Source: Talaromyces rugulosus
Taxonomy: Eukaryota > Ascomycota > Eurotiomycetes > Eurotiales > Trichocomaceae
Reading direction: 5' to 3'
Length of the DNA: 64,000 nt
Assembly (NCBI RefSeq): GCF_013368755.1
Contig: NC_049562.1
Coordinates: 2,356,001-2,420,000 of the forward strand
A program made the position numbers and the translations under genes. Position 1 is the stretch's first letter. The number at the start of each line of letters is the position of its first letter. Shown here in pieces: positions 6,966 through 24,421 of this stretch. Under the pieces are notes generated by a model. That model ran no database searches and was not told where the DNA came from. It saw nothing but the letters and a program-made list of their open reading frames with translations.

Positions 6966-7947
6966 TTTGGATCTGCCTCAAGCATGCCGCAATCTCGTCC
7001 AAAGAGATAATGCGCTTGAATATTCGTGAGTTTGCAATGGAACTATTGCTGGCGCCTAAGAAGCGGAATGATCTAAGCCTCGGCAAGAAGTCACGTGCCT
7101 ACATATCGCACAGCTGCACAGCTGCACAAGTTGGCTAACGCAACACTTTTAATAGCAAGAAACAATAATAAAAATTCTAAATAACAGCGATTACTTGAAA
7201 TTCGATAAATAACTTGCCCAAAGAACTACTGTAACAGAAGAGCGAGCGACAGTAGTAGATCATTAGGTCAGGTGCGCGGCTTATCGATAAGCACACGTAT
7301 AAGAGTCGATTTTTTTCGCGCCCGAAGATTCCTTCTTTCTTTTCTCTCTCATACATAAAACTACAACCCTTTCTATTCACTCTGATTTCCAATCTTACTC
7401 TCATGGATCTTCACGAGGGGAAATGAAAGGGAAGAGAGACTGTCGCTGCTACTTACCCCGAAACTTCCGATTTGCGTGGAGGATTTTGGAAATAATTACA
7501 GCGCAACATGCCAACTTGTTGTTAACTCGCATTGTGTTCTTCTACCCCCGAAGCAACAACATACAAGGGTCTACGTCAGTTTGCGATTGAAAATAGAATC
7601 GCCAATCTTTACTTAGACTCGTGCCAATTAGTCCGCGGTCTCAGCTGCCAGCGATCCAGCTACTCGTCGTCATTTTTCGACAGGTGGAAGGTATATACCC
7701 AACGGCGCTGCTGGCTTGTACTTCTAGACTTCATCGACCGTCGCAATATTCTTGAAATCGTGCTCTTGCACTGCGAAGTCTCCGGAGCGGAAGATGGAGT
7801 GAGTCCGTGGAGTATATATTTATTGTGTTTATATTCCCTAGGCCATGTGCTGAGAAATAAAAGTTCAAGTGTGGGCTTGTCCCAGGCTTAGTAGACGTGA
7901 ACTCAGATCTCTTAAAGCACTTTTGAGGAAATTCCGAGATAACTGTA
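6966..7947. other. Intergenic region, no supported gene
   Basis: AT-rich. A 119-codon forward frame at 7532-7891 has no recognisable domain and no support. The end of the stretch is the 5' flank of tRNA-Leu(TAA). Confidence 0.4.
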
Positions 7948-8118
7948 GTACAAGTGGCCGAGTGGTTAAGGTAGGCTTTCCCGGGTCCCTTGTGGCGTCA
8001 ACGTCCATCTAACATTGGATTAGGCGGAAGGCTTAAGCTAAATTAAGCTCCTGTAATTGTTACAATTACAAACACCCTTCTGACGCAAGTCTCGCGCGTT
8101 CGATCCGCGTCTTGTACA
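7948..8118 (+). tRNA. tRNA-Leu(TAA) with anticodon-loop intron plus GT-AG insertion in the D-stem
   Basis: Acceptor arms GTACAAG (7948-7954) and CTTGTAC (8111-8117) pair perfectly, with discriminator A at 8118. The T-arm is GCGCG-TTCGATC-CGCGT (8094-8110). D-stem 5' strand GCC is at 7957-7959, but the matching 3' strand GGC is split: G at 7970, then a 53-nt insertion (7971-8023), then GC at 8024-8025. The insertion starts GTAGGC, has CTAAC at 8009-8013 and ends TTAG. The anticodon stem is GAAGG (8027-8031) with CCTTC (8076-8080), loop CT-TAA-G, anticodon 8034-8036, and a canonical intron about 8038-8074. Without both inserts the tRNA is 81 nt with a type II variable arm. A T-run at 8122 onward is a Pol III terminator. 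An alternative GGC at 7974 could pair in the unspliced D-arm but leaves no usable anticodon arm. Confidence 0.85.
7971..8023 (+). other. Spliceosomal-type intron-like insertion in tRNA-Leu(TAA) D-stem
   Basis: 53 nt, GTAGGC at the 5' end, CTAAC branch-like motif, 10 nt to the terminal TTAG. Excision joins G and GC to rebuild the D-stem strand GGC. It lies 3' of the Pol III A-box core, so promoter elements stay intact but the A-to-B box distance grows. Confidence 0.75.
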
Positions 8119-8413
8119 GTACTTTTTTTCTTCCTTTTTTTTTGGGTGTTATAGGAAGTTAATGTTTGTTTAAAGCGAGAGGGTGCTGTAATGGAGCTTA
8201 AAAGAACGGAGGGGAATACACGTAGATTATGAAGGGCAAATTTTAGAAGAAACATCAGGGATGGAAACATATTTGAAACCCGCAAAATCCTCAATTGCTC
8301 TGTTCAATTGAAAAGGTACGCTCATTTCTATCTCATAAAAAAGAAACCTTAACGGACAACAAAACGCAGACATCATATTTCACCAAGACCACAAGCTTTT
8401 TTGTGGCATGCTT

Positions 8414-9368
8414 TCATTCCCCGGTAGGATTTACCCCGGTCTTCTCCTCGTCAGAATCGCTTTCATCGTCGCCAGGCTCCGAATCACTCCCACTGCTCGG
8501 CACACCCCAATGATATTTCTCCGTATCCAAAGCCTTGAGTTTCTCATAAACCTCGCGTCCGGTGGGACCGATTGGCCGATTAGTACTTCTCGGTATCTGG
8601 GGAGTCTCTTGTGTGGGAGCAGTATTTTTCACTACCCCAGTGGGTTTTGCAACGGACTTGAGCAAGGGCACTGAAGAAGCAGCTTTGGCGTTGTTGGTTT
8701 GTTTTGTGTTGGCACTCTTCTTTCTTGGTTTGGCAGGAGCTTTACGCTTTGGAGGCGGTCTTTTTGGGCCATTCTTCCTTGCGGCAGCGGTGGGTTTCTT
8801 TCCGTTTGTGACCACGACACTGCCTACACTTTCACTGTCCCCACAGTTGCTGGATGTGGCTGGGGTCAGTAGCGTAGATGTTGTTGTTGACGAACCAGCG
8901 TCGCTAGGGCATGGAATCTCCTCGACGAGATCATACTCTGGTGTCATTCGCTTGATGGACCGAGAAGAGAGTCCTGCGTTCATCTTGCATCCGTACCAAA
9001 AGGCGTCAAACATGCTCGTGTGGAGAATCTGCTCAAAACATATTGGACGTTAGCTAACCTATTGCTAACCATAATTGAAACGACAAAGTAAACAGAAAGA
9101 GGCTGCATACCATGCTAGTGCAAGCTATTTTGAATGCCAGTGAGAGTCCCTCATCCTGGTGGATGAGGCGAGTGATGTCCTTCTCAATTTTGGCGCGGCT
9201 GATGGTCGTCTTCTTGTTTTTGGAGACGCAGTCTTGGACCACGGAATTGGCATGTGTTACGTAAATATGGACGAGGTAGTTCTGTCAAGATGTCAGTCTG
9301 TGTTTGACCACTGAAGCCATCCGATTACATACTGTATGTTCGTAGCCCTCCGTTTTGAGGTTGTCCAT
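8414..9368 (-). CDS. Protein of unknown function with Lys/Pro-rich region and acidic tail
   Basis: Exons 9368-9333, 9281-9111 and 9028-8414 join in frame through GT-AG introns (51 and 82 nt) to 273 residues. The N-terminal third is helical and ordered (NYLVHIYVTHANSVVQDC, then KTTISRAKIEKDITRLIHQD and SLAFKIACTSM), and reads like an alpha-helical fold. The middle carries a strongly basic stretch (PKRPPPKRKAPAKPRKK), a likely nuclear localisation and nucleic-acid-contact segment, and the C-terminus is acidic (SDSEPGDDESDSDEE). I do not recognise the family. The start is the least certain point: the frame stays open upstream of 9368 (LKVDSLAQCFQESFPLALKSL), so a further 5' exon may exist. A nuclear role is inferred from composition. 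Confidence 0.6.
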
Positions 9369-10074
9369 CGTCCAAATGAGGATCGCGTTGAGCGATTTCA
9401 ATGCTAAAGGAAAGCTTTCTTGGAAGCACTGAGCGAGAGAGTCTACCTTGAGGCGAGACTGGCGTAGGCGAGGCGCAAGTTGACAGCAAAGCGAGGGTTT
9501 TGCAACAGGTAATCGCAGTGATATGACAGACGCAAAGAATGTGGGTTGAAGGGTAAGAGATAGAATGGGGCCCTTTTATGATGCGCTGAAGAAGAGTAGC
9601 GAGGTGGGCATGGGTGAGAGAGGAAGAAAGCAGTGGCTGAGAGAGAAGGTGAGGGATGGCTGGGTCCTTTCCCCAGGGAAGTTGGGTGCAACGCCTAAAA
9701 CATCAAACATCAAACATCAAACACCACAATGTGGCCTCACAATCCAGTGAATGGGTGAATTACCCCTGAATAGGTTTCATCTTGCATTGGATTCCGAAGA
9801 GCTATTCACACTGTGACTAGAGTATTGTTTTCCTTGGCAGCTGTCCAAAAATGAAGCACAAGACATGGATTCTGGTTTCCGCGCATTTGTGATTCTTCTA
9901 TAGACGACTCTTAGTAATACTCTCATAATTAGTTGGGTTGTTTCAGATGGGCCGTAACAAAGATACCAACCCCAAATGTCTTATCAAGCTAGTATCCAGT
10001 GTATATACCAACATTCACACACATAATAACCACTCCCGCCATTTCTCCTTTTTCTTTAAAAAAAAAAAAAGGTG
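9369..10074. other. Intergenic region
   Basis: Holds the possible missing 5' exon and promoter of the preceding reverse-strand gene and the 3' flank of the HNH gene. A poly(A) run lies near 10059. No other gene supported. Confidence 0.4.
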
Positions 10075-10915
10075 CTACCTAGCTTTCCAGCGAACTCTGC
10101 CAACCCACTTTGCCCAGTTCTGAACATCGTCCCTTTCGAGGATTTGATCTATAGTGTAGTACTCGCGCGCAAGCTCCTCGTTGCTCGCCATACGGTGCAC
10201 AAAGCTATGGCACGCGCGACACAGCCAAGCGACGCTGTTCAGCATCCACTCCTCATGCCAGCCACGCTTGAGCACCTTGTCATGGACTTCTCGGGGGATC
10301 AGATGGTGGTAGGACAGCGGAATCCAGTCCCGCTCGCATATTTCGCAGGCATCGACACGAGTAGACACCCATGCTGGAGGGCTAGCCGTGGCCGAGGCAA
10401 TGTAGTCTATCAGGACCGGCCGCGTGAATGTTGCAGTCAAATCGAGCGACTCGGGGACGATGCCATAGACCGACAACGACTCTGACACGGACACTGGAGT
10501 TGCCGCCGTCCAGGCCTCTATTACAGACGTCGGCAATTCAGAAGGGTCTTCGTATCGATCTGCCAGCGCTGCGTCGTTTTGGGTCTTTGAATATGACAGC
10601 GTCTGCAGCTCATCAGACAGCGCATAGAATATCTCTGATGCAATAAACTGTGGGCAGGGACAGTGTGTGTTAGCCTCTATTCGGCAGTTACAGGCTGAGG
10701 GAAATAAAAAAACGTACATCGATAAAGTCGGCCAGCTCCTCTGGGTTCTGCTTCTCTATTCTGCCATTGCTGCTGGTCTTGTCTGTCCCCGCACCGCCGC
10801 GCTGTCGGCCTCGAGTCTTTTTCTTTGCGGGATTCTTATGAGCTACTTCCGATCTTTGGACTATGGCCGCCGACACGCATTCTCGAAATACTTCGTAGTT
10901 GTTGCCGTCGGTCAT
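10075..10915 (-). CDS. HNH-type nuclease-fold protein
   Basis: Exons 10915-10718 and 10647-10075 (70-nt GT-AG intron) give 256 residues. The first exon is basic and low-complexity (KKKTRGRQRGG), compatible with nuclear targeting or nucleic-acid contact. The C-terminal third has the HNH/zinc arrangement CEICERDW, SYHHLIPREVHDK and LCRACHSFVHR: two CxxC pairs flank a His-His-Leu motif whose second His is the usual catalytic or metal-binding position. This is the fungal HNH-domain family; most members are uncharacterised, so DNA cleavage is a family-based inference. Spacing of the metal ligands looks complete, so the fold is probably intact. The end KWVGRVRWKAR is typical for the family. Confidence 0.75.
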
Positions 10916-11497
10916 TTAACAGAACATGAGGCTGTGAACAGTAGTGGTGGTATTGATGGTGCGACGGGGAGCGGAAGGAAACTTCGCAAACAGCGCGGAA
11001 AAGAGGGCGCTCGGGATCCATCCGAACCCCCGACTTAACATCAAACCCATCCCAAGTCGTCACCAGACTGGAAATTAGGCAGTGTTGAGGAGAGAGAATG
11101 CGGGGGTTATTATCATAGCCAACTCGTTCACGTTGCTCTATGATGCCGATAATTCTATACGTTCCATCTCAGTCGTCTCCGGCCTAGAATATTCAAGTAC
11201 ATATATATATATAATCCCGGGCCGGAACTTTGGATAGCAGCGACAAGAAAGAGACAACTTTGAGAAACACTTGCCACGACTTACACCAGCACATGCTCTT
11301 AGGAATGTAAATTGCCAAAACAGTGTAAGAGATTAAGAATTGGCCCTAAAACACAGCTTCCGGGGCCTGGTTCCGACATACGAACCATGTCAATTACGAT
11401 ACCTTGCCAGGTAATAATAATGAACCCTACCAATGGCCGAAGTTGGCTGGAATAATTTGGAAACCATCTTGTAGCACTTTTCCGAGGTTGTGCTCAA
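10916..11497. other. Intergenic region between HNH gene and tRNA-Leu(AAG)
   Basis: Promoter side of the HNH gene, then AT-rich sequence with a short TA repeat near 11201-11212. No gene recognised. Confidence 0.45.
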
Positions 11498-11651
11498 GGC
11501 AAGATGGCCGAGTTGGTTATGGGTAAGATCATCTCCGCATACATTCTAAACCACTCACTAACAAAATAATCAGCGTCAGGTTAAGGTCACACCTTAATAT
11601 ATGTCTCCTGATGGACGCAAGTCCGCGTGGGTTCAAATCCCACTCTTGTCA
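11498..11651 (+). tRNA. tRNA-Leu(AAG), copy 1, with anticodon-loop intron plus GT-AG insertion in the D-stem
   Basis: Acceptor GGCAAGA (11498-11504) pairs with TCTTGTC (11644-11650) with one G-T wobble; discriminator A at 11651. T-arm GTGGG-TTCAAAT-CCCAC. D-stem GCC (11507-11509) pairs with GGC formed only after removing 11523-11573 (51 nt; GTAAGA start, CTAAC at 11558-11562, ATCAG end). Anticodon stem TCAGG (11576-11580) with CCTGA (11607-11611), loop TT-AAG-G, anticodon 11583-11585, canonical intron about 11587-11605 (19 nt). Variable arm GGAC-GCAA-GTCC. Predicted mature length is 84 nt. A T-run follows from about 11655 as terminator. Confidence 0.87.
11523..11573 (+). other. Spliceosomal-type intron-like insertion in tRNA-Leu(AAG) copy 1
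   Basis: 51 nt, starts GTAAGATC, branch-like CTAAC followed by 11 nt to ATCAG. Excision joins GG and C to restore the D-stem 3' strand. Confidence 0.78.
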
Positions 11652-12126
11652 ACCTTTTTTTTTATAGAGGGTATAACTTTTTTATGATAATAATAGAGAG
11701 TTGAAATTCTAGTTCTTGTGTGCCGAGAACGGCAACCCTATTTTTTTTTGCGCTACCAAGTTACAAGCCAAGGCTTTGTCCCACGTACCATGTATTACTA
11801 TATTTCGCGTTCGCAAGAGAAAAGAATGTATAAACTAGTTCAATTCACTTTTTCAATTCCAATTCGGAGATTTTGTCCCATTACACCATTGACGTACATG
11901 TATGTATATACCATACCCTAACAGACTAAACAGACATCTAGACGAATGAATGCTATTGCAATGACAATGACCGTTTTGTCTAATCCCGGAACCACTTGCA
12001 AGAAATATGGATGCCATTCATGTGAAGAGAAAACCAAAAAACAAAAACCGAAGAAAATACCCATGCAAAGCCCGCTAAAGCCATATGCCAAGGTAGATGG
12101 AGTTTACTTTCGGCTCCCGACGATTT
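11652..12126. other. Intergenic region
   Basis: AT-rich with short forward frames lacking any domain; 3' flank of the mitochondrial carrier gene. Nothing supported. Confidence 0.45.
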
Positions 12127-13440
12127 TTAACCCATGGCCCGCATCACCAGTTCCACACTAGAGTAACAGGTTAATACCGATGTATACTTATCCAACCTAG
12201 AACAATTACTCACGTTGCAAATGTGCCTGCCGACACTGGCATGGCCCTAAGCAGGGTAGGACCCAGTCCCCTGAAAAGCGCGCCGAATCCCTCAGCCGCG
12301 ACTGTCTGCCGGAAACAATCGGTCATACTCTTGTATTTTTGCTGGGCACCGAAGCCGTCGGTCTGCATTTTGCTCTTAATCACATCAAGCGGATAGCTGG
12401 AAAGCCAGAGACCTTCGCCAGCCAGACCTCCGTAGGTAGCGACCTTGATACTGGAGATATCCTCTCGCTTGATGTTGTTACGCTTTGCGTCTTGATTCAT
12501 CAAATACTCAAAGGTTAAAAACCACACACCGTACGCTTGCGCTTCTCGGAAGATGGTGACCACTTCACCACGGTAGAGACCGCGGAGCACGCCGCCGTGA
12601 GAAGACAACTTGCGTACACAGTCTATGGGCCCATTGTACAGCCGACCGGCTCCATGGGGCTGGGCCTGCAGTCGGATACGGACATGCTCGATAGGTCCAG
12701 AAATGACCGAGTTGGTAACACCTGCAAAGGCACCAGCGAGGTAGTACTGTGAGTAGGAAAGACCAGGGTGCAGGGGAGAATTTTTCGAATTCCGCTCTTC
12801 AAAAAATCTCCGTGCCTGGTGGAAAGCACCGAACTGAACACTAACCTGTAGAATTGTCAGGAACGGTTAAAACACAATACAAATCTCGAGGAGACTACTC
12901 ACACAAGCACCAATTCCAATCAATGGAGTCAGCGTGCCTTTGTAGAAAGCCAAAGGACCTTCATTTTTGAAGATTTTCGACGCACAGTCAAGCGCATTGG
13001 AGTACTGTGATGTTGTCTGTAGCCGCACCTTGACGATATCTGTTGTCGAATTAGATGATTAATCGGAACCTCCTCTAGCAATCTAATATCCCATCACATA
13101 CCAAAAGGTTGGCCTGCATTCAAAGTTAGCAAATAAATCAATCCCATGATTTTCCGCCTCTAATGAGCAGACATGAAGCCCGGTCGGTCTCTGTGTGCTT
13201 GGCCAAATCTCATGAGGAGCGGGGTTGAGCATGTCAATCAATTGGCAGCAAGCAACGCCTAGCGACTTCTAGGACTGACACAATCATGCGTCTCGAATTG
13301 CGTGGGCTCAATGAAGATTCATATCACATACCCAACAGGACCTGAGTAATGCCGCCTGCAGCGCCGGCAAAGAGGTCCTTGGCAGTACGCGCCCAGCCAG
13401 CATTGGCTAGGTCGTCATCGATTTTCTCAAAGTCCTCCAT
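12127..13440 (-). CDS. Mitochondrial carrier (SLC25), YMC1-type, with a 12-nt micro-exon
   Basis: Five exons: 13440-13332, 13113-13102, 13039-12903, 12845-12214 and 12157-12127, spliced to 306 residues. Three carrier repeats are present. The first signature reads GQPFDIVKVRLQ, of which GQPF comes from the 12-nt second exon; the second region has GPIEHVRIRLQ, the third SYPLDVIKSKMQ. Glycine-rich helix ends (FAGAAGG, LAGAFAGV, YGGLAGE) are intact. KGTLTPLIGIGACVSVQFG is characteristic of yeast Ymc1 and its Aspergillus relatives, inner-membrane carriers linked to amino-acid and organic-acid transport; the exact substrate is an inference. Introns are 218, 62, 57 and 56 nt. The gene is head-to-head with mitochondrial IF2. 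Confidence 0.88.
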
Positions 13441-13760
13441 TTTCAGCGGGCAGAGGAGCGACAAGCAGATCGAGAAAAACTGGCAGGTTGAGAGGAAGGC
13501 ATCTTGTTCTTATCTGCAAGATGGACAAGACCATCGCTCGTCCCTGTCCGATTGCGCAACCCCGGGCGGCGCTGTAACTGGCCGGATTCCCCGAGTCACG
13601 TGAACGGGGACCCACCTTGGTGCCAAGCCCGGGCGGGAAGGTTAAACCGGAGCGCGCCTGCCCTCGGGGAAAAAAAACATAATGAGAATAAGTTCACGCA
13701 GCGCCGAAGACCCAATCGAGACAAGACAGGACGAGATGATGCCTTGAGCGTCCTCGCATC
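13441..13760. promoter_or_regulatory. Divergent intergenic region between YMC1-type carrier and mitochondrial IF2
   Basis: Only 320 bp separate the two start codons, so promoters and 5' leaders must share it. Both products act in mitochondria, which makes common regulation plausible. It contains a GC-rich stretch (CCCGGG-type sites near 13560 and 13630). No specific factor site can be assigned. Confidence 0.5.
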
Positions 13761-16700
13761 ATGCAAAGAAGAGCCCTGAGGCGGGTGAGTTGTCTTTGCC
13801 CTTGCGTTTTCCAGCCATGCTATGCCATTGCTTTGTTGCCGGATGCAGACTGACCACATACTTCTCTCCTCTACAGATATGCCGGCGTCCACACATCGAC
13901 TCGGCGTATACCGCGGCCGTGACGTGTCGGTCACAATGCCTTCGATTCCATTCGGCTTCACGTCATTTCCAATCTGGCGAGGCTGCAGCTGAGGCCAAAA
14001 GCAATGGCAGCGCTAAACCTTCGCCAGAGTCCTCACCCCAAACACCGCAAGGCAGACGGGGTGCTTCCAGCTCTGCAAACAACACCGCGGCCAAATCCCA
14101 GGGTACGCCCCCTCGAGCGCCAGCATTCGGAGCTATGCGGTTTGGCGGCATGAAATCTAGCGGCCAATTGGCTGCTCAGAGTTCGTCCGTGAAGAAAGTG
14201 GTGGGCCTTTCAGCCGCCGAACAAGCAAGCAGGAATGCAATCATGGCATCGCAGCCACGCAAAGCTTCACCCTTAGGGGATACATCAACCACCACGCCCG
14301 TTTCGCCAGAATCCCAAAGAGTGACGAATCAACGCTTTCAACCCCCGCCGAGTTTACGTACTCAGGACTGGGTGTGTCCCGACTGTGCTTATCCTTGCTT
14401 CGGCAAGAACGCTTACTGTCCAAAATGCCGTGCCACTCGCCCTGGATTGAACAAGGCCATTGAAAGCCTGAGAGACGCCAGCCAGCAGAAGACTACGCCC
14501 CGGAAGAACAGCCAGCCCAAAAAGCACCCCCAACCAGACACCGGTCTCAAGATTCGAAAGCTGGGGGCTGAGGCGGCACAGGCGTGGCGAGAAAATAACC
14601 GGGAGGTCACATTTCGCACGATGCTCGATAAGCCCCCTCCAAACATGGAAGTAAATGAAAATCGCGCAAAACAGCAACGTGTGAAGGAGCAAATTGCAAA
14701 GGACGCAAACTTCAAGATTAATTATGTCGAATTCAAGCCGCCGGATGGCGAACAGGATCCGGAGGATGCTACAAACACAACAACGACAACGGGTAAAAGC
14801 GAGGAAATTGAAATTGAAAGAGACACCCGGAGTAGGAGACGTGCAAAGCCAGTTAGGCGCGAACAGTTCTTTTACGAAGACGAGGACTTCGACCCTGAGG
14901 AATTAGAAGCGCGAAAACAAAAGCGAAAGCAACAGAAGAAACAAAAGGATGTTGCCCCGGCTCCGAGCCCATTGTATCTTCCTGAATTCATCAGTGTTAG
15001 CAATCTTGCCACCGTCCTCGGCGTGCGACAGGCGGACTTCATCTACCACTTGGAAGAGATTGGGTTTGAAGGAGTGATTCACAGTCATGTCTTGGATGCC
15101 GAAACAGCAGGGCTCATTGCGGCAGAGTATAACTTCGAGGCAATCTTTGATACGGGTGAACAGGATTTGAAGGCAGCCCCTGAACCCGAAGACAAGTCTC
15201 TATTGCCATCACGGCCTCCCGTAGTGACTATTATGGGACACGTTGACCATGGCAAGACAACGCTCCTAGACTGGCTTCGGAAATCCGCTGTCGTTGCGTC
15301 CGAGCACGGTGGAATCACACAACACATTGGAGCCTTTTCCGTGTCAATGCCATCTGGCAAATCTATCACCTTCCTCGATACCCCTGGCCACGCTGCCTTT
15401 TTGGACATGCGCCGAAGAGGGGCGGATATGACAGATATCGTTGTATTGGTTGTAGCCGCCGACGACAGCGTCAAACCGCAGACGTTGGAAGCGATAAACC
15501 ATGCCAAGCAGGCTAATGTGCCCATCATCGTGGCCATCAACAAGGTCGATAAAGACAACGTGAACATAGAAAAGGTTAAACAGGACCTGGCCCGCCATAG
15601 CGTTGATGTTGAAGACTATGGAGGAGACGTTCAGGCTATCCCTGTCAGTGGGAAAACTGGCCAGGGCATGTTGGAGCTTGAGGAGGCTATAGTGACCCAA
15701 TCAGAGCTTCTCGACCACCGAGCTGATACCGAAGGGAATGCCGAAGGATGGGTTGTCGAAGCCACGACCAAGAAGGCTGGCCGTGTTGCAACCATTTTAG
15801 TCAAACGAGGCACGATCTACCCTGGTGATATTCTTGTTGCCGGTTCTACGTGGACACGAATCAAGACTTTGAGGAACGAGGCAGGGATTACTTTGGAAAA
15901 GGCCACGCCCGGCTTACCTGTTGAAGTTGATGGCTGGAAGGAACAGCCGGAGGCAGGTTCCGAAGTTTTGGAGACGTCGACCGAACAGCATGCCAAAGCG
16001 GTTGTCGAATACCGCATGGAGCGAATGGACACCAAGAAATTGGGCCAGGACACAACCGCGATCAACGAAATCCGTCGTGAAACCATTGAACATAGGCGTC
16101 GCATGAGCAAAGAGGGCGATTTTGAAGCTCAAAAGGCGCCAGCAGGTCCTAAGCCTGTCAACTTTATTGTCAAGGCCGATGTCTTTGGGTCGGTTGAGGC
16201 CGTTTCCAGCTCGGTTAGTGGAATCGGCAACAACGACGTTTTCGCCCAGATACTGCGCTCCGGTGTTGGACAGGTCAGCGAGTTTGACATCACTCATGCA
16301 GCTACATCCAATGCCTCGGTGATCAATTTTAACAGTGATATCGACCCCATGATTTCGCGAATGGCTGAAAACCAAGGTGTCAAAATAATGAATCATAATA
16401 TTATCTACGAGCTCATTGACGACGTGAAGGCCACCATGAGCGAACAGCTGCCCCCCAATATCATCCACCGTGTCACCGGTGAGGCCGCGATTGGTCAGGT
16501 ATTCGACATCACCATCAAGGGCCGGAAAACGATGCCGGTCGCTGGTTGCAAGGTCCGCAACGGCGTGATCAGTCGCTCTAAGAAAGTCCGCGTAATGCGA
16601 GAGAAGGAAATTGTCTACGATGGTATGTTTAACATTCATTTCTGTTTCCAGAAAATACTAATCAGTATTAAAATGCACAGGCACTCTCTCATCTCTCAAA

Positions 16701-16835
16701 AACGTCAAGAAAGATGTCACCGAGATGCGCAAGGACAGCGAATGCGGCATGGGCTTTGAAGGCTGGTCTGCCTTTGAGGTCGGCGACCATGTTCAATCCT
16801 ACGAAGAAATCATCGAAAAGAGATACCTCGAGTGA
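13761..16835 (+). CDS. Mitochondrial translation initiation factor IF-2 with N-terminal zinc finger
   Basis: Exons 13761-13784, 13877-16622 and 16681-16835 join to 974 residues. The first exon gives MQRRALRR, which with the next residues forms an Arg-rich mitochondrial presequence. A RanBP2-type zinc finger (WVCPDC and YCPKCR, about residues 172-196) precedes a charged linker, the IF2 N-terminal helical module ([16 protein letters not shown]) and the GTPase domain: G1 GHVDHGKT near 462, G2 GGITQHIG, G3 DTPGHAAF, G4 NKVD. Domains II-IV follow ([41 protein letters not shown]). The last exon restores [19 protein letters not shown], conserved in IF2. The forward frame starting at 13790 is an intron reading. 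It brings initiator tRNA to the mitoribosome. The zinc finger is not part of bacterial IF2. Confidence 0.93.
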
Positions 16836-17282
16836 AAAGAAAAATACTCGGTCATCTGTCCCTCTTGACTTGGTTTACTAATATCTTCATGTGTACTTTT
16901 ACGTCTAGCACCTCACCTGCATTAATAGATGGGGGGAAAAACTATTTGTCTTGCATATTCGGAGTTGGGAGGATATTGACGATGTTATTGTCTGATACTG
17001 GACATGCCATTTTATCCTATCATGTATAAATATAAATACCACTATGCGCTTGGAAATAAATTGATTTTTTTATTAAAAAAAAGGCATGACCTGTTATGAG
17101 TTAGGGCTAAAATAGGCTTGATTAGCTTTGCATTTCCGGTGCTAGTCTTAAAACAGTTTAGCTTTTCTGTGTTCCTTTTCCTCACACAATATTTGAGCAA
17201 TCTTATCGATATTATTTATCATATTATTGCCACTAACTTTTCCCTACATAGACAAAAAATTAAGGCTACTTAAAAAAAGTAT
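16836..17282. other. Intergenic region
   Basis: AT-rich 3' flank of IF2m and terminator side of the reverse-strand tRNA-Leu(AAG). No gene seen. Confidence 0.5.
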
Positions 17283-17439
17283 TGACAAGAGTGGTATTCG
17301 AAACCACGCGGACTTGCGTCCATCAGGAGACATATATTAAGGTGTGACCTTAACCTGACGCTGATTCTTTTGTTAGTTGATGATTCAGGATGTGTAGTGC
17401 TGGGATGAGCATACCCATAACCAACTCGGCCATCTTGCC
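17283..17439 (-). tRNA. tRNA-Leu(AAG), copy 2, with anticodon-loop intron plus GT-AG insertion in the D-stem
   Basis: Reverse-strand acceptor GGCAAGA (17439-17433) pairs with TCTTGTC (17290-17284); discriminator A is 17283. The exonic sequence matches copy 1 except in the T-arm, which is GTGGT-TTCGAAT-ACCAC here: a G-C pair has become T-A, so pairing is conserved. Anticodon AAG is 17351-17349; the canonical intron (17347-17329, 19 nt) is identical to copy 1. The D-stem insertion (17414-17361, 54 nt; GTATGC start, CTAAC at 17376-17372, ATCAG end) differs from copy 1 nearly everywhere but its ends. Mature length 84 nt. A T-run follows on the reverse strand. Confidence 0.87.
17361..17414 (-). 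other. Spliceosomal-type intron-like insertion in tRNA-Leu(AAG) copy 2
   Basis: 54 nt, GTATGC start, CTAAC then 11 nt to ATCAG. Only the donor, the branch/acceptor block and a few scattered bases are shared with copy 1. Confidence 0.78.
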
Positions 17440-17688
17440 GTGATGATACAGACCCTGGAAAGTACATTAAGATCTTTACTGCAACGCTGCGCTCGTTGGG
17501 TGTTTAGCGCCAATTGTACCAGGGCTGTGTTTCCCGACTTCCGATGGAACGTGTACTAACTACCGTTGGTTGCTTATTATTTAAATTCTTGAAAATTTAC
17601 CGACGATGAGATTTTAATCACATCGACTTCTTAGGATCTGTATATTGTTTTATATAAAATTGCTAATACTTTCAACGAAAATTCAACC

Positions 17689-18567
17689 ATGAGCCACAGC
17701 GTCCGGCACTTTGCCGGCGATCTCTATGCCAATGCTGGCATCTGGAGTCCGCCGTCCAGCGCTGCAAAGTACGTGTTCAAAATCAAAAAAGGGGGGTCAA
17801 TAAGCAGATCAAGCATGGCTAATCAGGCAACACGAGCAGCTTTTGCGAAGAAGACTACGCTGTAACCATCTACATTGCCGAGTTTATCAATTCCCTCAGC
17901 AATCTGGTCTACAGTATGTCTCTACCCTCAGTTACATAGCAGAAGTTAATTCCAAACCTTAGTCTACTATGGCATTCAACAATACTCAAAATCCCGCTCT
18001 GTAGACACCATGTCCGCATCTCTTGTTCTCGTGGGTGTCTGCTCATTTATTTTTCACGCGTCTCTGCGCCAGACCATGCAATTTGGCGACGATCTCTCCA
18101 TGCTGTTCCTTGCCGGGTCGCTGATCCAGCGCTTATACTGCGCTGGACAGGAAGCGCCAACCAGGCGTCTCATCACAGTTATAGTCTACGCCACTGTCTG
18201 TCTGATGTCGGCATACTACGTGCAGAGCGGAAATATCGTTATACACACGTCCATGTTTGCTGTTATGTTGACGTTTGTCTGGCCACGCACTCTTTATCTA
18301 ATCAGCCGCCGCCAGGCGCAATCACCGCAAAAAAACGCCCAGGAAAAGGCGCGGCTCCGTTGGAACTTTAAAAAGGCGGTTGCATACCTGGTGCTGGGGT
18401 TCTTGGTGTGGAATATTGACCTCGAGGCGTGTCAGCTGCTGAGAAACTTACGCAATGCGATTGGCGTGCCGTGGGCCTGGGCGTTGGAGTTGCATGGCTG
18501 GTGGCATTTTTTCACGGCTTTGGGTGCTGCGGTGTACATGGATCTTATTAGAGATCTGTGTCCGTAG
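17689..18567 (+). CDS. Alkaline ceramidase (YPC1/YDC1 family)
   Basis: Exons 17689-17768, 17840-17913 and 17963-18567 (introns 71 and 49 nt) give 252 residues. The acceptor at 17839 is preferred over the AG at 17826 because only it restores SSAANFCEEDY, the family's conserved FCE motif. Then follow AEFINSLSNLVY, FHASLRQTMQFGDDLSMLF (conserved His and Asp metal ligands) and the C-terminal ELHGWWHFFTALGA, whose two histidines complete the zinc site. Seven hydrophobic segments fit the family topology in the ER/Golgi membrane. The enzyme hydrolyses (phyto/dihydro)ceramide to a long-chain base and fatty acid. It is divergent from tRNA-Leu(AAG) copy 2, 249 bp upstream. Confidence 0.9.
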
Positions 18568-18727
18568 ACAACCGACTGTTAAGTACATAATCTAGGTGGC
18601 AGGGATTTTTTTTTCCCCCAGTAATCAAATCCCAGTCGATCTTGTTTACAACTGTTCTCAATTAGAGGCCAGGAAAACGTACATAGAAACAGAAACGGTA
18701 TCTGCCGCACACAATACAATTCAATGT

Positions 18728-20876
18728 TCAATAAACATAAACAAAATCCTCGTTTTGCCAATCCGTTGCATCGTCCAAAGACCGATCCTCCTCCAGCGTG
18801 TTCGCGGTCGTCTTGGAATCAATATCATCGTCTCCGGCTTTGACGGCCGACATGGACTTGTCAACCACCTTTCTTGTCTTACCAACGGCTTCGCGCCTCT
18901 TCTCATGCCTGTGGTTCTGGATTTTCAAGATGATAATCTGTATACTGTGCTCTTCTGTATCAGTATGATGAGCCAAGAAAACGGTAATAACAAACCTACG
19001 CATAAATAATAATCAATAAAATAAAAAGAACAAGGTTGGAAACGAGGCCTCGACGGTAAAGAGGAGCTTCTTCGGTAGTGTACAAATTAGGACCGAGGAC
19101 CTGTTGTATCAATTGATTTTAGACTGGCAGATTTCCGGTATGTATCCAGTCCAAACACTCACGTTTCCAGCTGATTGGCCAACGATCATGATAGCCGTGG
19201 TGATTTTCTTCTTGGTCTCGCCAGCCGTGTTTGCAGCTTGCCACGAGTATATCAGGGGGGTGATTCCAGGGTATACTGAGATCTAGCGGAGGATTGTAAG
19301 TATACAGTATTAACCGCCATACACTCATACACTCAATGGCACTCACTAAATAGTATCCTACCAAGAGCGGACCTTTGTGAGCAGTGTCGTGACTTAGAAG
19401 CAATAGCATCACGCATCCGATGATTGGCGGGATTGACAGAAACATCAGGACGGGGCTTTTTAGCTTCCATATCATGGCAATATATGCCCCTCCCATCGTT
19501 GCAATCAACTGAACCGCACCAAAAGGCATGTTGAAAAGGATCGTTTTGAACTCGTTGTACCCAAAGCCCTTGATGATGAGCGGGCCAAAAGTCGAGATGC
19601 CGCCACTGGGAACTCTGTATGGTCCTCTGATTAGGGTTTAGTTCCGAGAAAATCAAAAGTATATGTCCTTACGATATCGAGAAAAGCATGGCAAACCACA
19701 GCCAGGTTTTGGGATCAAAAACGGCTTCTTTGACGTGATCCCATTTCCAGATGTCGTTCTTGATGCCTTGTTGATTGAGGCGCAATCTAGGAAGCACACA
19801 TGTAGTCAGTGCCTATTCATATCTCTTAAATTTCTCCTCTGTTTACCGCTCAACGGCCACCAGCTTGTCTTCTCCTTTGAGAAAATTTGTATCAAGTGGT
19901 GAGTCGGGCATAAAAATCCTAGAGCATAGTTAGATTCACATTAAATTTTTTGCTTTACTTTTTTCCAAAGTACTTACAATATAACAACTGAAAATGCGAC
20001 TGTAAGGACCCCGAAGAACAAAAATATGATCTGATATATCAATTATGCTCAGCACCAACTTGGCGAAAGAGATAAAGATAGGACAAACCTGATACGGGGC
20101 CAGCGTTGAGGAGCTAATATGCCCTAATCCCCATGAGATCAGGCTGCCAAACTATAAAACAGAACCTGTTAGATTTATCTAGAGACATAACAAAGGCTTG
20201 ATTTACCATGTTCGTTATACCGTTCATTGCGTACCAGGCCCCGAGTCTCACAGGCTGCTCCCGTCGTCGATACCACATTTGCGTAACAGAAATAAAAGCA
20301 GGCGCTGCATTAAACTATTAAAAACAGTACTTGAACAAAAGCCACAATGATCGAGGGAAACACACCAACACCGGCTTCAAAGGCACCGAGCAGGAGTCTA
20401 CAAACGAGGAGTCCAGCAAATCCGTTGGCAGCAGACATTGCAGCTAGGACGGCTCCCCAGCAAAATACTGACACTGCTAGGAACTTTCCCAATGGAACTT
20501 TGACGAGAAGATAAGCAACAAGAGGCTGACACACGAGCTGGGCGAGATAGACAACCGCGCCCAGCCATGAGTACTGCTGCCCGTGCAGATTAGTCTTTGT
20601 GACCAAGCCAAAGACAGAGCCGTAGGCAAGTGTAGTCTTATCCAAGGACTGAAGAAAATATATTCCCAGTACGATGGGTAGAACTCTCAAATCAATTAAA
20701 CGCAAAACTCGAGCGTTGTTCTCAGGCGTGAGTATGGCGCTGTGGCCGGCGTTGTGTAGCACTTCCGCCGCTCTGTCTTTACCACTATTTTCTCCATGGG
20801 CGTTGATGCAATGCTCTGGCGCATGCTCAATTGTTTCTACCCCGTGGTAATCTTGAGATTTTGTGTTGTCCGTCAT
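18728..20876 (-). CDS. MFS transporter, DAL5/allantoate permease family
   Basis: Ten exons can be joined in frame: 20876-20366, 20304-20207, 20151-20089, 20030-19978, 19918-19847, 19786-19673, 19626-19347, 19282-19163, 19100-19000 and 18944-18728, for 542 residues. After a hydrophilic N-terminus come TM1 (LPIVLGIYFLQSLDKTTL), the family motif YGSVFGLVTKTNLHGQQYSW, VCRLLLGAFEAGV, then MWYRRREQPVRLGAWYAMNG, FMPDSP and RVPSGGISTFGPLII, all typical of the anion:cation symporter (DAL5/TNA1) group. It ends KTRKVVD and DATDWQNEDFVYVY, the usual tail. Substrate (allantoate, nicotinate or another carboxylate) cannot be assigned. Introns are 46-64 nt. A decayed partial copy lies about 0.5-0.9 kb upstream of its start. 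Confidence 0.88.
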
Positions 20877-21359
20877 GACGATCGAGGGACTGTACACTCG
20901 CCACCAATCGCAGCTTTTGGAAAATATATCCACAAAAATACAGGGGCTCCAGCGAGCAGGGATCTGAGCTTTTGAGATTATTATAAGCGTGTTGGTGCCT
21001 GTATATACCATAGATTGATTGCCCAAGGGGCGACCTTTGGTTCTATGATGCGGTTCTCAACAGGTGGTTTTGGGTGTTTGGCAGACAAAGCGAGCAAGCT
21101 GCTAGCGGCATTCCGCACATGTCGCCGTAGGATGACAGGATTGGTGACACGACCCGGTGCTACGCGGCATACGAACACCATTATATGCCGCACTGCATTA
21201 TATTGAATATAGGCCGCCGGCTAGCGGGAGCTACAAGGCATTGACCCCCGGGGGGAAAATGCGGGGTTTCCTAGGGAATCTAGGGAAATGAGACAGTTTC
21301 TGTCAATTACCGACTAGCTTTCTCAGACACTACAAGATCTTTCTTGAATGTTAACTTGG
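20877..21359. other. Upstream region of the MFS gene
   Basis: Promoter region of the reverse-strand transporter. The frame is open upstream of 20876 to another Met near 21026, which I regard as leader. Nothing else supported. Confidence 0.4.
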
Positions 21360-21780
21360 GTATTGTATAGGTGCTTACGATATCGAGAGAAACATGGCAG
21401 CTAACAGCAACACTGCTGTCATGTAACTACGCGGTCAATATTGTGGGTAGGGATTTTATGAGATTAGACTACCAACTATAAAGCAGAACCATTAAAACTT
21501 TTGTTGGCAGCCACACAAAAAGACCAGAGGCCCGCTGGGCACTCAATCTATGGTATATAGGCCCAAAAAGCTCGGCTCGAGTAATAGGTATCAACTGTGG
21601 CTACCCATCCGTTGGCGCGGGGAAGATAGTCTAACAGTATTCATCTATCGGTAATCCGCATCTTAGATACTTATTATACGTTGGCGCCTGAGGATAAACC
21701 ATAGATTGACTGCCCAATGTCCCTTGGTACAGCTGTCATTATTATATCAATCACTTGCGCCATGTCGCCTAAGGTATAGC
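21360..21780 (-). pseudogene. Decayed partial duplicate of the MFS transporter locus
   Basis: Several blocks match the MFS locus in the same order and orientation. TTACGATATCGAGA...CATGGCA near 21375 matches 19669 onward. CCAACTATAAAGCAGAACC near 21471 matches 20147 onward. CCATAGATTGACTGCCCAA near 21700 matches the leader block near 21009. Intervening exons are missing or unreadable. The blocks therefore represent a deleted, mutated second copy, now non-coding. Alignment was by eye only. Confidence 0.55.
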
Positions 21781-22848
21781 CTGTGGAATCCCGCTCCCAC
21801 ACCTCGAAGATACCTTTTATTTTTTTATGTTGGGTTCCCGGTGAGCTTGCTCAACATACGAGCGAGGTGGACAAGGTAGACTGAAAAATAACATCTGTTG
21901 AAACCCAGTTGAGCTTCTAACTAAACATATTAACATAGAATAAACATACTTCAAAACAGCAACTCGTAGAAATCCTGCAGTTTGAGAGAGCTGATGGATC
22001 CGAATACGAATCAATTCCATACGGACATCGGTGGGTAGATCATCAATTATCATAGTAAAGGCGTCTAGGATCATTGGGAGTTTGGGGATGCGATCTTGAA
22101 TAAATCCTGGACAAGGGTCGACAGGAGTCAGGATGGCCATTGGTTCGAGAATGAAAAGATTGTCACCCAAATAGTGAATACGATCAACACAACGACAATG
22201 AATATTACGGGAAGGAAGGGTTATCTGTTGAGTAGACGTTTTCATAGTAGATCTTATGTTTGGACTTAGGGTGACAGAGCCTTAAATAATAATGCCAGGA
22301 AGACATAAACAATAGACAACAGATAGTAGACAATAGACCTCTAGCGACGAACAATCACGACCTGAACTTTAGACCCGCATGGAGGCATGGAGGCGCGGGA
22401 ATAATCCGGACCAGCCATTTTCAATAGTGAAGCTTGGTAGGGGTCGCGATTCAAAGCGTAAGAGGAAGTCGGGCTCCTTCCGAGAATCCTGGCACTCACC
22501 CCGAAAACCCTATAATACAGCACGCATTCTTGTGATGTCTTCTATATCCTTCTTTGTACTATAGTTTCGACTTCGAGGCAGTGCAATATCGACTTGGCTG
22601 TGGCAATTGTCCGTCAAACGAATAAGCCAACAACATACAAATTGTAGATAAAATCTTAATCATGACACGGGTAACGAATACAAGCACCAGGCACAAATTC
22701 ACATCCTTGTCTAATACGCGAAAACAGAGCTGACCTCAAAGACAGACACATAACGAACTACGCAGGCCAGTTTGTATGGGATCTGATGATGTATGTACTC
22801 GGCAATTTACTAAGAGTCAATGTTTGAGCTTAGGCAAAAATCGTCAAA
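21781..22848. other. AT-rich region with no supported gene
   Basis: A reverse frame of 142 codons (21817-22245) has no recognisable motif and no codon-bias support. The rest holds short frames only. The end is the 5' flank of tRNA-Leu(TAG). Confidence 0.35.
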
Positions 22849-23002
22849 GGCAACGTGGCCGAGTTGGTTATGGGTAAGCCAGACCTGCATCAACCATCGA
22901 GACTTAAGAATAAGCAACTAACAAATGATTAGCGTCACGTTTAGGCAAATTAAACATTGTCCGTGATGGGAAACCGCGCGCGTTCGAATCGCGCCGTTGT
23001 CA
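22849..23002 (+). tRNA. tRNA-Leu(TAG) with anticodon-loop intron plus GT-AG insertion in the D-stem
   Basis: Acceptor GGCAACG (22849-22855) pairs with CGTTGTC (22995-23001); discriminator A 23002. T-arm GCGCG-TTCGAAT-CGCGC. D-stem GCC (22858-22860) pairs with GGC only after removing 22874-22932 (59 nt; GTAAGC start, CTAAC at 22918-22922, ATTAG end). Anticodon stem TCACG (22935-22939) with CGTGA (22962-22966), loop TT-TAG-G, anticodon 22942-22944, canonical intron about 22946-22960 (15 nt). Mature length 80 nt. T-run from 23010. Acceptor and T-arms are identical to those of the reverse-strand tRNA-Leu(CAG) at 24307, and the 3' flanks are homologous. Confidence 0.86.
22874..22932 (+). other. 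Spliceosomal-type intron-like insertion in tRNA-Leu(TAG)
   Basis: 59 nt, GTAAGCC start, CTAAC followed by 10 nt to ATTAG. Same insertion site as the two tRNA-Leu(AAG) genes; the interior is unrelated by eye. Confidence 0.77.
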
Positions 23003-23310
23003 AAGATATCTTTTTTTGCCAATTATATATGGGCTTTTTTGGTCGATGTTTTATCGGTCGGATATTCGGCATATTTGAAATCGAGTACTGTTGTTATATA
23101 GGTAGAAGTAGAAAACAATGCGTGCACTTTTTTTTTGTTCAATGTATTTGTTCAGGCTAGATATCAGTTACTTTATGGTGAACATTTTGTTTGGGCCAGA
23201 TATCTAGCATATGGATTGTGCGCCCAGCGTCTAGTATCCGAACATGCAGTCCGGACACAAACATGACACGCGGTTTTATAAAAGCTCAGTTCTTAGGTTC
23301 CATAGCAGTC
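23003..23310 (+). repeat. Left arm of a diverged inverted repeat (3' flank of tRNA-Leu(TAG))
   Basis: Read forward, this flank aligns with the reverse complement of 24020-24306. Shared blocks include TTTTTTGCCA, GATATCAG-TACTTTAT-GTGA, TATGGAT-TTGTGCG and TTTTATAAAAGC, in the same order with many transitions and small gaps. Arm ends are approximate. Confidence 0.65.
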
Positions 23311-23704
23311 CCTTCATCGTCCAAAAAAGGGTTTTTCGAAAATCTCTGTCTGTTATGTGGTGCGAGATTGGGATTTCCGGTGACCCGGACGGATATCCGA
23401 TATTGTCAGTCAGGGCTTAGTTATAGCCTTTTTTTTAACAGAAACGAAAACAAAAAAAAGATCTTTCGATACTAGAATCCAAAGTGTACTTCGGGAAGAT
23501 TAAGACTAATCTTGAGTCTAGCGCCTGTTTGAGAATGAACGCAGTGAAGCTTATTGGTAACTCGCATCACACAATTCCACCTTTAGAATTAATCCCCCTT
23601 ACAGGTTAAGAACCCAACAATATTGCTACAAACCCTAGCTGCAAGGGGGGTTGATAAGGGGTTGACGGCGTACTTGCGCAGCAAGGCCTGCGCGGACGAT
23701 TTGG

Positions 23705-23800
23705 CCGATTTACCAGCGTATTCAGGAAGTTTGGAACCTTGGAACCCTGCAGCGAGGCCGGTTTGACTAATTTACCAGCGTACCCAGGAAGCTTGGGATT
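23705..23800 (+). repeat. Two diverged 26-bp direct repeats
   Basis: Units at 23709-23734 and 23771-23796 share TTTACCAGCGTA and CAGGAAG and differ at three positions, all C/T transitions. The surrounding GAGGCCGGTTTGACTAA and GACGATTTGGCCGATT also look related, so the true unit may be about 62 bp. Confidence 0.6.
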
Positions 23801-24019
23801 TGAAACTGCGTTCTGTGTCCTAACGTTTATGCGCCACTGACTTTGTATATTATAGCTCTATTGTATGTCCCCGTTTTCTTAGTCTTTATTGTTTATTTTC
23901 TATGGTAAATTATTTTATATATGAGTGTCGTAGCATGTAAACATTAATAAGATATAAAATACACTAAACACATTATACTTCAAATTTAATACGGCTAGTA
24001 AGCCCGAAGTTTACTAGAA

Positions 24020-24306
24020 CAGTGCTTTTATAAAAAGCGTATGTCGTTTTTTATTTCCGGACACTACATATTCGGACGCACAAATATCCATACACCGGAT
24101 ACCTAGCCCAAAAATATAATCACGATAAAGTAGCTGATATCCAGCCTAAAGACACATATAAAAAAGAACACGCCTTGTTTACTTCCGGATGCGTTGTTGC
24201 TTCCGAATAGACACCAGTACTACATTTCGGTACTAGATATGCTGGATATCCTGACCCACAAAATATCGGGCCAAAAAAAACCTATATTTGGCAAAAAGAA
24301 TGTTGT
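24020..24306 (-). repeat. Right arm of the inverted repeat (3' flank of tRNA-Leu(CAG))
   Basis: Reverse complement of the left arm at 23003-23310. The two tRNA genes sit at the outer ends and face each other. The interior (about 23310-24020) is AT-rich and holds no supported gene. Confidence 0.65.
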
Positions 24307-24421
24307 TGACAACGGCGCGATTCGAACGCGCGCTCAAATTGAACTGCGAAAAGTATCGTGCGAGAAGAGATCTTATCACATGATCCTGAACACAGCGCCT
24401 TAACCGCTCGGCCACGTTGCC
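24307..24421 (-). tRNA. tRNA-Leu(CAG) with canonical anticodon-loop intron only
   Basis: Acceptor GGCAACG (24421-24415) pairs with CGTTGTC (24314-24308); discriminator A 24307. The D-arm GCC-GAGCGGTTAA-GGC is uninterrupted. Anticodon stem CTGTG (24395-24391) pairs with CGCAG (24348-24344) with one G-T wobble; loop TT-CAG-G, anticodon 24388-24386, canonical intron about 24384-24350 (35 nt). Variable arm TCAA/TTGA, T-arm GCGCG-TTCGAAT-CGCGC. Mature length 80 nt. A T5 terminator follows. It is the natural control for the other four genes, because it folds without any D-stem excision. Confidence 0.88.

Follow-up and report, generated by a model that had tools for sequence, protein, structure and literature searches.

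The window analysed here, 64,000 nucleotides spanning C2:2356001-2420000 of the six-contig, 35.76 Mb genome of Talaromyces rugulosus, contains four tRNA-Leu genes in which the 3' strand of the D-stem is interrupted, after position 23 or 24, by an insertion that begins with GT and ends with AG. In the genome as a whole, 12 of the 72 tRNA loci that we located were found to hold 13 such insertions of 50-60 nt each, none of them at the canonical intron position 37/38. Judged by their sequence, these insertions are very probably major (GT-AG) spliceosomal introns of nuclear tRNA genes, removed by the spliceosome from precursor tRNAs (pre-tRNAs) made by RNA polymerase III (Pol III), with the TSEN endonuclease taking the ordinary intron at 37/38. 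The tRNA features of the window are as follows, with position numbering, and the conversion of locus coordinates to genome coordinates used further below, being our own.

7948..8118, plus strand: tRNA-Leu(TAA) gene, carrying both a 37/38 intron and an insertion in the D-stem
7971..8023, plus strand: GT-AG insertion of Leu(TAA), 53 nt, junction 23/24, GTAGGC..ATCTAAC..TAG
8038..8074, plus strand: 37/38 intron of the ordinary kind in Leu(TAA), 37 nt long (approximate end register)
11498..11651, plus strand: tRNA-Leu(AAG) gene, copy a
11523..11573, plus strand: GT-AG insertion of Leu(AAG) copy a, 51 nt, junction 24/25, GTAAGA..CACTAAC..CAG
11587..11605, plus strand: 37/38 intron of the ordinary kind in Leu(AAG) copy a, 19 nt long (approximate register)
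17283..17439, minus strand: copy b of the tRNA-Leu(AAG) gene, forming an inverted duplicate with copy a
17361..17414, minus strand: GT-AG insertion of Leu(AAG) copy b, 54 nt, junction 24/25, GTATGC..AACTAAC..CAG
17329..17347, minus strand: 37/38 intron of the ordinary kind in Leu(AAG) copy b, 19 nt long (approximate register)
22849..23002, plus strand: tRNA-Leu(TAG) gene
22874..22932, plus strand: GT-AG insertion of Leu(TAG), 59 nt, junction 24/25, GTAAGC..AACTAAC..TAG
22946..22960, plus strand: 37/38 intron of the ordinary kind in Leu(TAG), 15 nt long (approximate register)
24307..24421, minus strand: tRNA-Leu(CAG) gene, with 37/38 intron and without D-stem insertion (uninterrupted relative)

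An initial annotation, made from the letters of the window, had described four tRNA-Leu genes (TAA, AAG twice and TAG) with insertions of 51-59 nt in the 3' D-stem strand, starting with GTA, ending in TAG or CAG and having CTAAC near the end. All of this was read again at the same places, with the branch A followed by 11 nt in Leu(TAA) and Leu(TAG) and by 12 nt in both AAG copies. Removal of the insertion together with the 37/38 intron, the latter being present in all five Leu genes of the window, left type II tRNAs of 80-84 nt with a GCC/GGC D-stem, also as described. A covariance model built from the spliced Leu forms aligned from end to end of the model with all five genes, scoring 58.7-74.9 bits and leaving 52-60 nt unaligned where the four interrupted genes have their insertion, although having been trained on the same window genes it measures fit and is not independent support. 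The observation was confirmed for all four genes; what it had missed was the uninterrupted Leu(CAG) gene and, elsewhere in the genome, an interrupted Leu(CAA) gene and tRNA genes for other amino acids with the same kind of insertion.

The inventory of 72 loci, which is a lower bound, consists of 45 loci matching the Rfam family RF00005, 21 further ARAGORN loci, the five interrupted Leu genes and one His gene (copy a). Genes missed by RF00005 were added by means of D-arm and B-box patterns and by reading of fetched regions. The B-box patterns matched 43, 46, 38 and 67 places, each of which either was a known gene or was scanned for a T-stem, an acceptor stem and an ARAGORN model; the matches of a further pattern, 131 in number, were listed into contig C4, with the remainder covered only by the 46- and 67-place patterns. 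The insertions located outside the window were the following.

C5:3237105-3237156, minus strand: Leu-CAA insert (locus L043), junction 23/24
C2:5477995-5478048, plus strand: Asp-GTC insert (L073), junction 18/19
C3:1985449-1985502, plus strand: Ser-GCT first insert (L081), junction 26/27
C3:1985509-1985558, plus strand: Ser-GCT second insert (L081), junction 32/33
C2:1097803-1097855, plus strand: Ile-TAT insert (L096), junction 26/27
C5:2909588-2909642, minus strand: Met-CAT insert (L112), junction 23/24
C2:2678201-2678252, plus strand: His-GTG copy a insert (L097), junction 14/15
C2:1090620-1090671, plus strand: His-GTG copy b insert (L095), junction 33/34
C2:4273044-4273103, minus strand: Trp-CCA insert (L115), junction 24/25

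The 13 insertions are thereby spread over seven amino-acid classes and seven junctions (14/15, 18/19, 23/24, 24/25, 26/27, 32/33 and 33/34), and the recurrence of the same signals at all of these supports the predicted spliceosomal nature of the insertions beyond the four genes of the window. Paralogues with an empty site were found in the same genome for Asp(GTC), in two copies, and for Met(CAT), in one, with Leu(CAG) likewise having no insertion. In His copy a (L097, 190-245), a direct repeat of GTGG on either side of the insert makes five junction registers equivalent, and this repeat could be a trace of intron gain.

With regard to splice signals, all of the 13 insertions start with GT and end with AG in one register, and all have G at position 5. 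Position 3 is A in 11 and A or G in 12 of them, while position 6 is a pyrimidine in 11, corresponding to an extended 5' site of GTRNGY, which is complementary to U1. CTAAC or CTAAT was present in 12 of the 13, with the branch A located 9-14 nt before the end of the insertion and, in nine cases, 11-12 nt before it. Dinucleotide shuffles gave an expectation of 1.06 insertions having CTAAY 6-20 nt from the end, against the 12 observed, with P(>=12) about 1.6e-13 when the insertions are taken as independent, and a chance origin of the signals was rejected on that basis. The ordinary 37/38 introns of the genome served as a negative control, in the form of 40 distinct ARAGORN models having an intron and no insertion, some of them with wrong isotype labels. 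None of the 40 was GT-AG in any of three registers and one had CTAAY, a count to be read with the fact that only 21 of these introns are at least 20 nt long, which leaves less room for the motif in the rest. As a small positive control, an intron in the gene for an IF-2 protein within the window, with its exons read against the Talaromyces islandicus homologue (91% identical over the 481 residues compared, against 99% for a JGI protein), was found to be GTATGT..ACTAATC..CAG. The introns of a mitochondrial-carrier gene in the window have GTATGT or GTGAGT, then CTAAC, CTAAT or CTGAC, and CAG, but that gene model required such signals and only the IF-2 intron is an independent control. The suggestion of the initial annotation that these are spliceosomal introns was thus strengthened, the same signals being carried by 13 insertions at seven junctions and being absent from the ordinary introns.

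A number of observations weigh against a spliceosomal origin or reduce the force of the evidence for it. The junctions were placed by us with tRNA structure and GT-AG in mind, and other registers are possible for 12 of the 13 insertions. Among the Leu genes, the GT-AG junction falls at 23/24 in TAA and CAA and at 24/25 in AAG and TAG, but 23/24 would also be possible in the latter with ends other than GT-AG, so that all five could share a single junction. Several 5' sites are weak (GTAGGC, GTACGA and GTGGGT), with T at position 6 in only 6 of 13, and the Trp insertion has no CTAAY, its T/C-rich end being present. The five Leu insertions are furthermore related, which leaves about nine independent cases, eight of them with CTAAY. 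Upon in-silico excision, ARAGORN returned the anticodon as we had assigned it in 10 of the 12 genes, i.e. Leu(TAA), both Leu(AAG), Leu(TAG), Asp(GTC), Ile(TAT), both His(GTG), Trp(CCA) and Ser(GCT); the Leu-CAA gene was instead called Leu with anticodon CAG and the Met-CAT gene was called Trp, miscalls that we put down to the choice of 37/38 register made by the program. As gene assignments and junctions were made together, the excision result is a consistency test. Copy b of His can alternatively be parsed as Trp(CCA) with an insertion of 43 nt, in which CTAAT lies too close to the AG. Finally, the inventory is incomplete, with Met-i, Val-AAC and Val-TAC not located in it, and although an insertion is present in each of the two His genes located and in the sole Ser-GCT and Ile-TAT genes located, uninterrupted copies for these three were not the target of any search.

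If the insertions are indeed spliceosomal introns, Pol III would transcribe the whole tRNA gene from its internal promoter, U1 would recognise the GTANGY 5' site, U2 would pair with the CTAAY that lies some 11-12 nt ahead of the AG, and the D-arm or anticodon-arm exons would be joined by the spliceosome. The ordinary 37/38 intron would be removed by TSEN and tRNA ligase, i.e. by the usual protein route. One precursor would hence need two unrelated splicing machines, possibly acting in the order given here.

It could instead be proposed that, as in Cyanidioschyzon merolae, TSEN or a variant of it recognises structure when cutting the D-arm and the other sites, with tRNA ligase joining the exons; we regard this as improbable. 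Eukaryotic TSEN does not need a strict bulge-helix-bulge at 37/38. When the 13 insertions were scored for that motif, in a test of strict geometry run without a positive control, 12 did no better than shuffles (at least 53% of which reached the score), and bulge-helix-bulge introns were rejected as a class since at most one of the 13 rose above shuffles. That one, Leu-CAA, scored 7 of 10, a value reached by 5% of shuffles, which favours an endonuclease, and the single 23/24 junction possible for all five Leu insertions is likewise one that a structure-guided nuclease might use. However, introns of this type would have no need for GT-AG, G at position 5 or CTAAY, yet these are found in 13, 13 and 12 of the 13 insertions, respectively, and the ordinary TSEN introns differ from the insertions both in their site and in the signals, as the control counts illustrate. 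There is precedent in that C. merolae and cryptophyte nucleomorphs have extra tRNA introns in the D, anticodon and T arms besides those at 37/38, which in C. merolae are tied to bulge-helix-bulge and in nucleomorphs are removed by an unknown route (PMC3978253, PMC4090602). In contrast to the insertions studied here, those of C. merolae are treated as substrates that a protein endonuclease cuts at a bulge-helix-bulge, the ectopic introns of Guillardia are only 3-24 nt long, and no GT-AG with a branch site is described for either in the portions of these papers drawn upon here (PMC3978253, PMC4090602). The known eukaryotic tRNA introns outside 37/38, as far as the same sources and one more cover them, are those of C. 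merolae and the nucleomorphs, either assigned to bulge-helix-bulge and endonuclease or left unexplained (PMC3978253, PMC4090602, PMC9602550). Group I and group II introns could be rejected more simply: the insertions, at 50-60 nt, are too short, and no Rfam match was found over the four in the window. The ribozyme core of such introns exceeds about 200 nt.

Production of these tRNAs by RNA polymerase II (Pol II), with the introns removed as in mRNA before tRNA end processing, would also explain spliceosomal signals, Pol II transcripts being the normal place of such introns, and we consider it quite unlikely. The insertions of His copy a (14/15) and of Asp (18/19) do lie within the A-box region by our numbering, in Asp at its end, which speaks for Pol II. 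In the Leu genes, on the other hand, the A- and B-box regions are uninterrupted, as are the T-arm and the part of the D-arm that ends at position 22. Moreover, each of the 12 genes has a run of T5-T9 some 2-20 nt beyond its end, whereas a run of T4 or longer occurs in none of the 13 insertions, with 2.8 expected from mononucleotide shuffles. Five of the eight insertion-bearing genes outside the window were found only by way of T-run patterns, so that the terminators of that group were partly selected for. The terminal T runs and the T4-free insertions would fit Pol III transcription. Because T5-T9 runs follow the genes, a spliceosome acting on Pol III RNA fits best of the three mechanisms that the initial annotation had offered, the others being Pol II transcription and a new D-arm-cutting activity.

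The spliceosomal RNA U6 is made by Pol III. Both U6 and U3 carry spliceosomal introns in fungi, the case of U6 speaking further against the Pol II reading, and according to a 2017 paper, in the part of it used here, no other small structured RNAs were known to have an intron often (PMC5832005). The likeness to the genes studied here is that introns in small structured RNA genes are removed by the mRNA splicing machinery (PMC5832005), the difference being that the hosts are here tRNA genes, with several junctions used and with a TSEN-type intron in the same transcript. In lichen fungi, the rRNA made by RNA polymerase I (Pol I) contains spliceosomal introns, one of which was correctly removed when moved into yeast ribosomal DNA (PMC8527467). 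Those introns are similarly short, the one tested in yeast having 57 bp, and similarly reside in a structured RNA not made by Pol II (PMC8527467), although the host there is a Pol I rRNA and not a tRNA. From what these accounts report of the U6/U3 and lichen rRNA introns, there is precedent for each half of the proposed mechanism.

The two AAG copies allowed a view on constraint. Outside the insertion they have 3 differences in 103 nt, two of which make up a compensatory change of the last T-stem pair from G-C to T-A, and T-A at this pair is found also in the tRNA-Ala(AGC) genes of the genome. When the insertions themselves are aligned, 42 of 55 columns agree, and the final 17 nt, which contain the branch site and the AG, differ only once. 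This pattern suggests constraint on the exons and the splice signals and a weaker one on the remainder of the insertion. The Leu genes have kept intact acceptor and T stems, and a pseudogene status of the interrupted genes was rejected in view of the compensatory T-stem change and the preserved splice signals.

Intact Leu(AAG), Leu(TAA) or Leu(TAG) genes elsewhere, a possibility raised by the initial annotation, were not found, nor was an uninterrupted Leu(CAA) gene, either by two D-arm patterns matching 14 and 12 places, all of which were read, or among the B-box hits. Six of the 14 places were Leu genes and the other eight, when read, were not tRNA; one of the 12 was Leu-CAG, and the other eleven had neither a B box nor an acceptor partner. 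A DNA search with Leu-AAG returned the two AAG copies only, but since the remaining Leu genes escaped it too, its negative outcome says little beyond AAG. No uninterrupted Trp D-arm was found within two mismatches, the single match being Arg-TCG. That the interrupted genes are dead and that uninterrupted ones elsewhere supply the cell is thus hardly credible, even with an incomplete inventory and own-genome searches giving lower bounds, considering these searches, the intact stems and compensatory change in the Leu genes, and splice signals that would not be expected to persist in dead copies.

It is likely that production of most Leu tRNAs, together with that of the His, Trp, AGY-Ser and AUA-Ile tRNAs, obligately depends on the spliceosome acting on Pol III transcripts, with two splicing machines for each precursor, and that the introns were gained repeatedly at different sites. 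Provided that the inventory is correct as regards these anticodons, removal of the insertions would be essential to the life of the fungus. The introns of tRNA and of mRNA are taught as separate worlds served by separate enzymes, and spliceosomal removal would, if true, mean that this rule fails for essential tRNAs and that decoding depends on the spliceosome. It would also provide a natural system for studying whether the spliceosome acts on Pol III RNA that lacks the cap and tail of Pol II transcripts, in which order spliceosomal and TSEN splicing take place on a single molecule and, as intron-bearing and empty paralogues coexist for Asp and Met, how spliceosomal introns are gained.

In the open-access literature, to which the search extended (subscription papers and preprints lie outside it), no description of spliceosomal introns in nuclear tRNA genes was recognised among the matches listed. 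The string 'spliceosom' is absent from the main text of one review of tRNA introns (PMC4090602), a 2026 review of non-canonical splicing presents tRNA splicing as proceeding without the spliceosome in the section at hand (PMC13149111), and another paper, in its relevant part, treats introns of tRNA genes as archaeal-type or group I (PMC11782384). The exact Leu D-arm junction pattern had 0 matches in viral and in bacterial/archaeal genome contigs, and a search of viral contigs with the IF-2 protein for related loci gave no relative.

The expectation that standard tRNA finders would miss or misfold these genes was borne out. ARAGORN run without introns found 0 tRNAs in the window; with introns allowed, it labelled three of the four interrupted Leu genes as Gly, His and Pro and missed the fourth. 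The sole RF00005 match in the window was the uninterrupted Leu-CAG gene (24307-24421). On the whole genome, where 63 of 941 first-look candidates were scored, RF00005 gave 46 matches, 45 of them above the cut-off, with none of the 12 insertion-bearing genes among them, and for these 12 ARAGORN returned wrong isotypes or nothing. The tRNA annotations of such fungi may consequently be incomplete or wrong. Two loci that ARAGORN labelled 'Leu(caa)', L046 and L116, were rejected as Leu genes and reassigned to tRNA-Lys(CTT), having a short variable region and a body near-identical to L051, which is called Lys(ctt).

Regarding the tRNA complement at large, few genes were located (72, as a lower bound) and ordinary introns are present in at least 40 distinct gene models, a combination of small count and many introns that we take to be unusual for a Eurotiales genome. 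Two tRNA-like loci, C4:2781854-2781926 and C3:854895-854966, look organellar in sequence on our reading and are possibly mitochondrial DNA copied into the nucleus. Among the 45 RF00005 loci, one or two are of this appearance, and that at C3:854895 has no ARAGORN model.

Five of the six tRNA-Leu genes located in the genome lie within 16.5 kb (window positions 7948-24421). The two AAG copies belong to an inverted duplication in two pieces, with arms at 11494-11662 and 17272-17443, and the TAG and CAG genes share an inverted stretch of 48 nt that includes their 3' ends (22976-23023 and 24286-24333, 83%). Upstream of tRNA-Leu(TAA), a match to the Rfam H/ACA snoRNA snR8 at 7350-7511 on the plus strand was below threshold (30.6 bits with a cut-off of 45, E 0.077). 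Upstream of a nearby transporter-like gene, the stretch 21365-21408 resembles part of that gene (19659-19702, 82% over 44 nt) and is perhaps a decayed partial copy of it.

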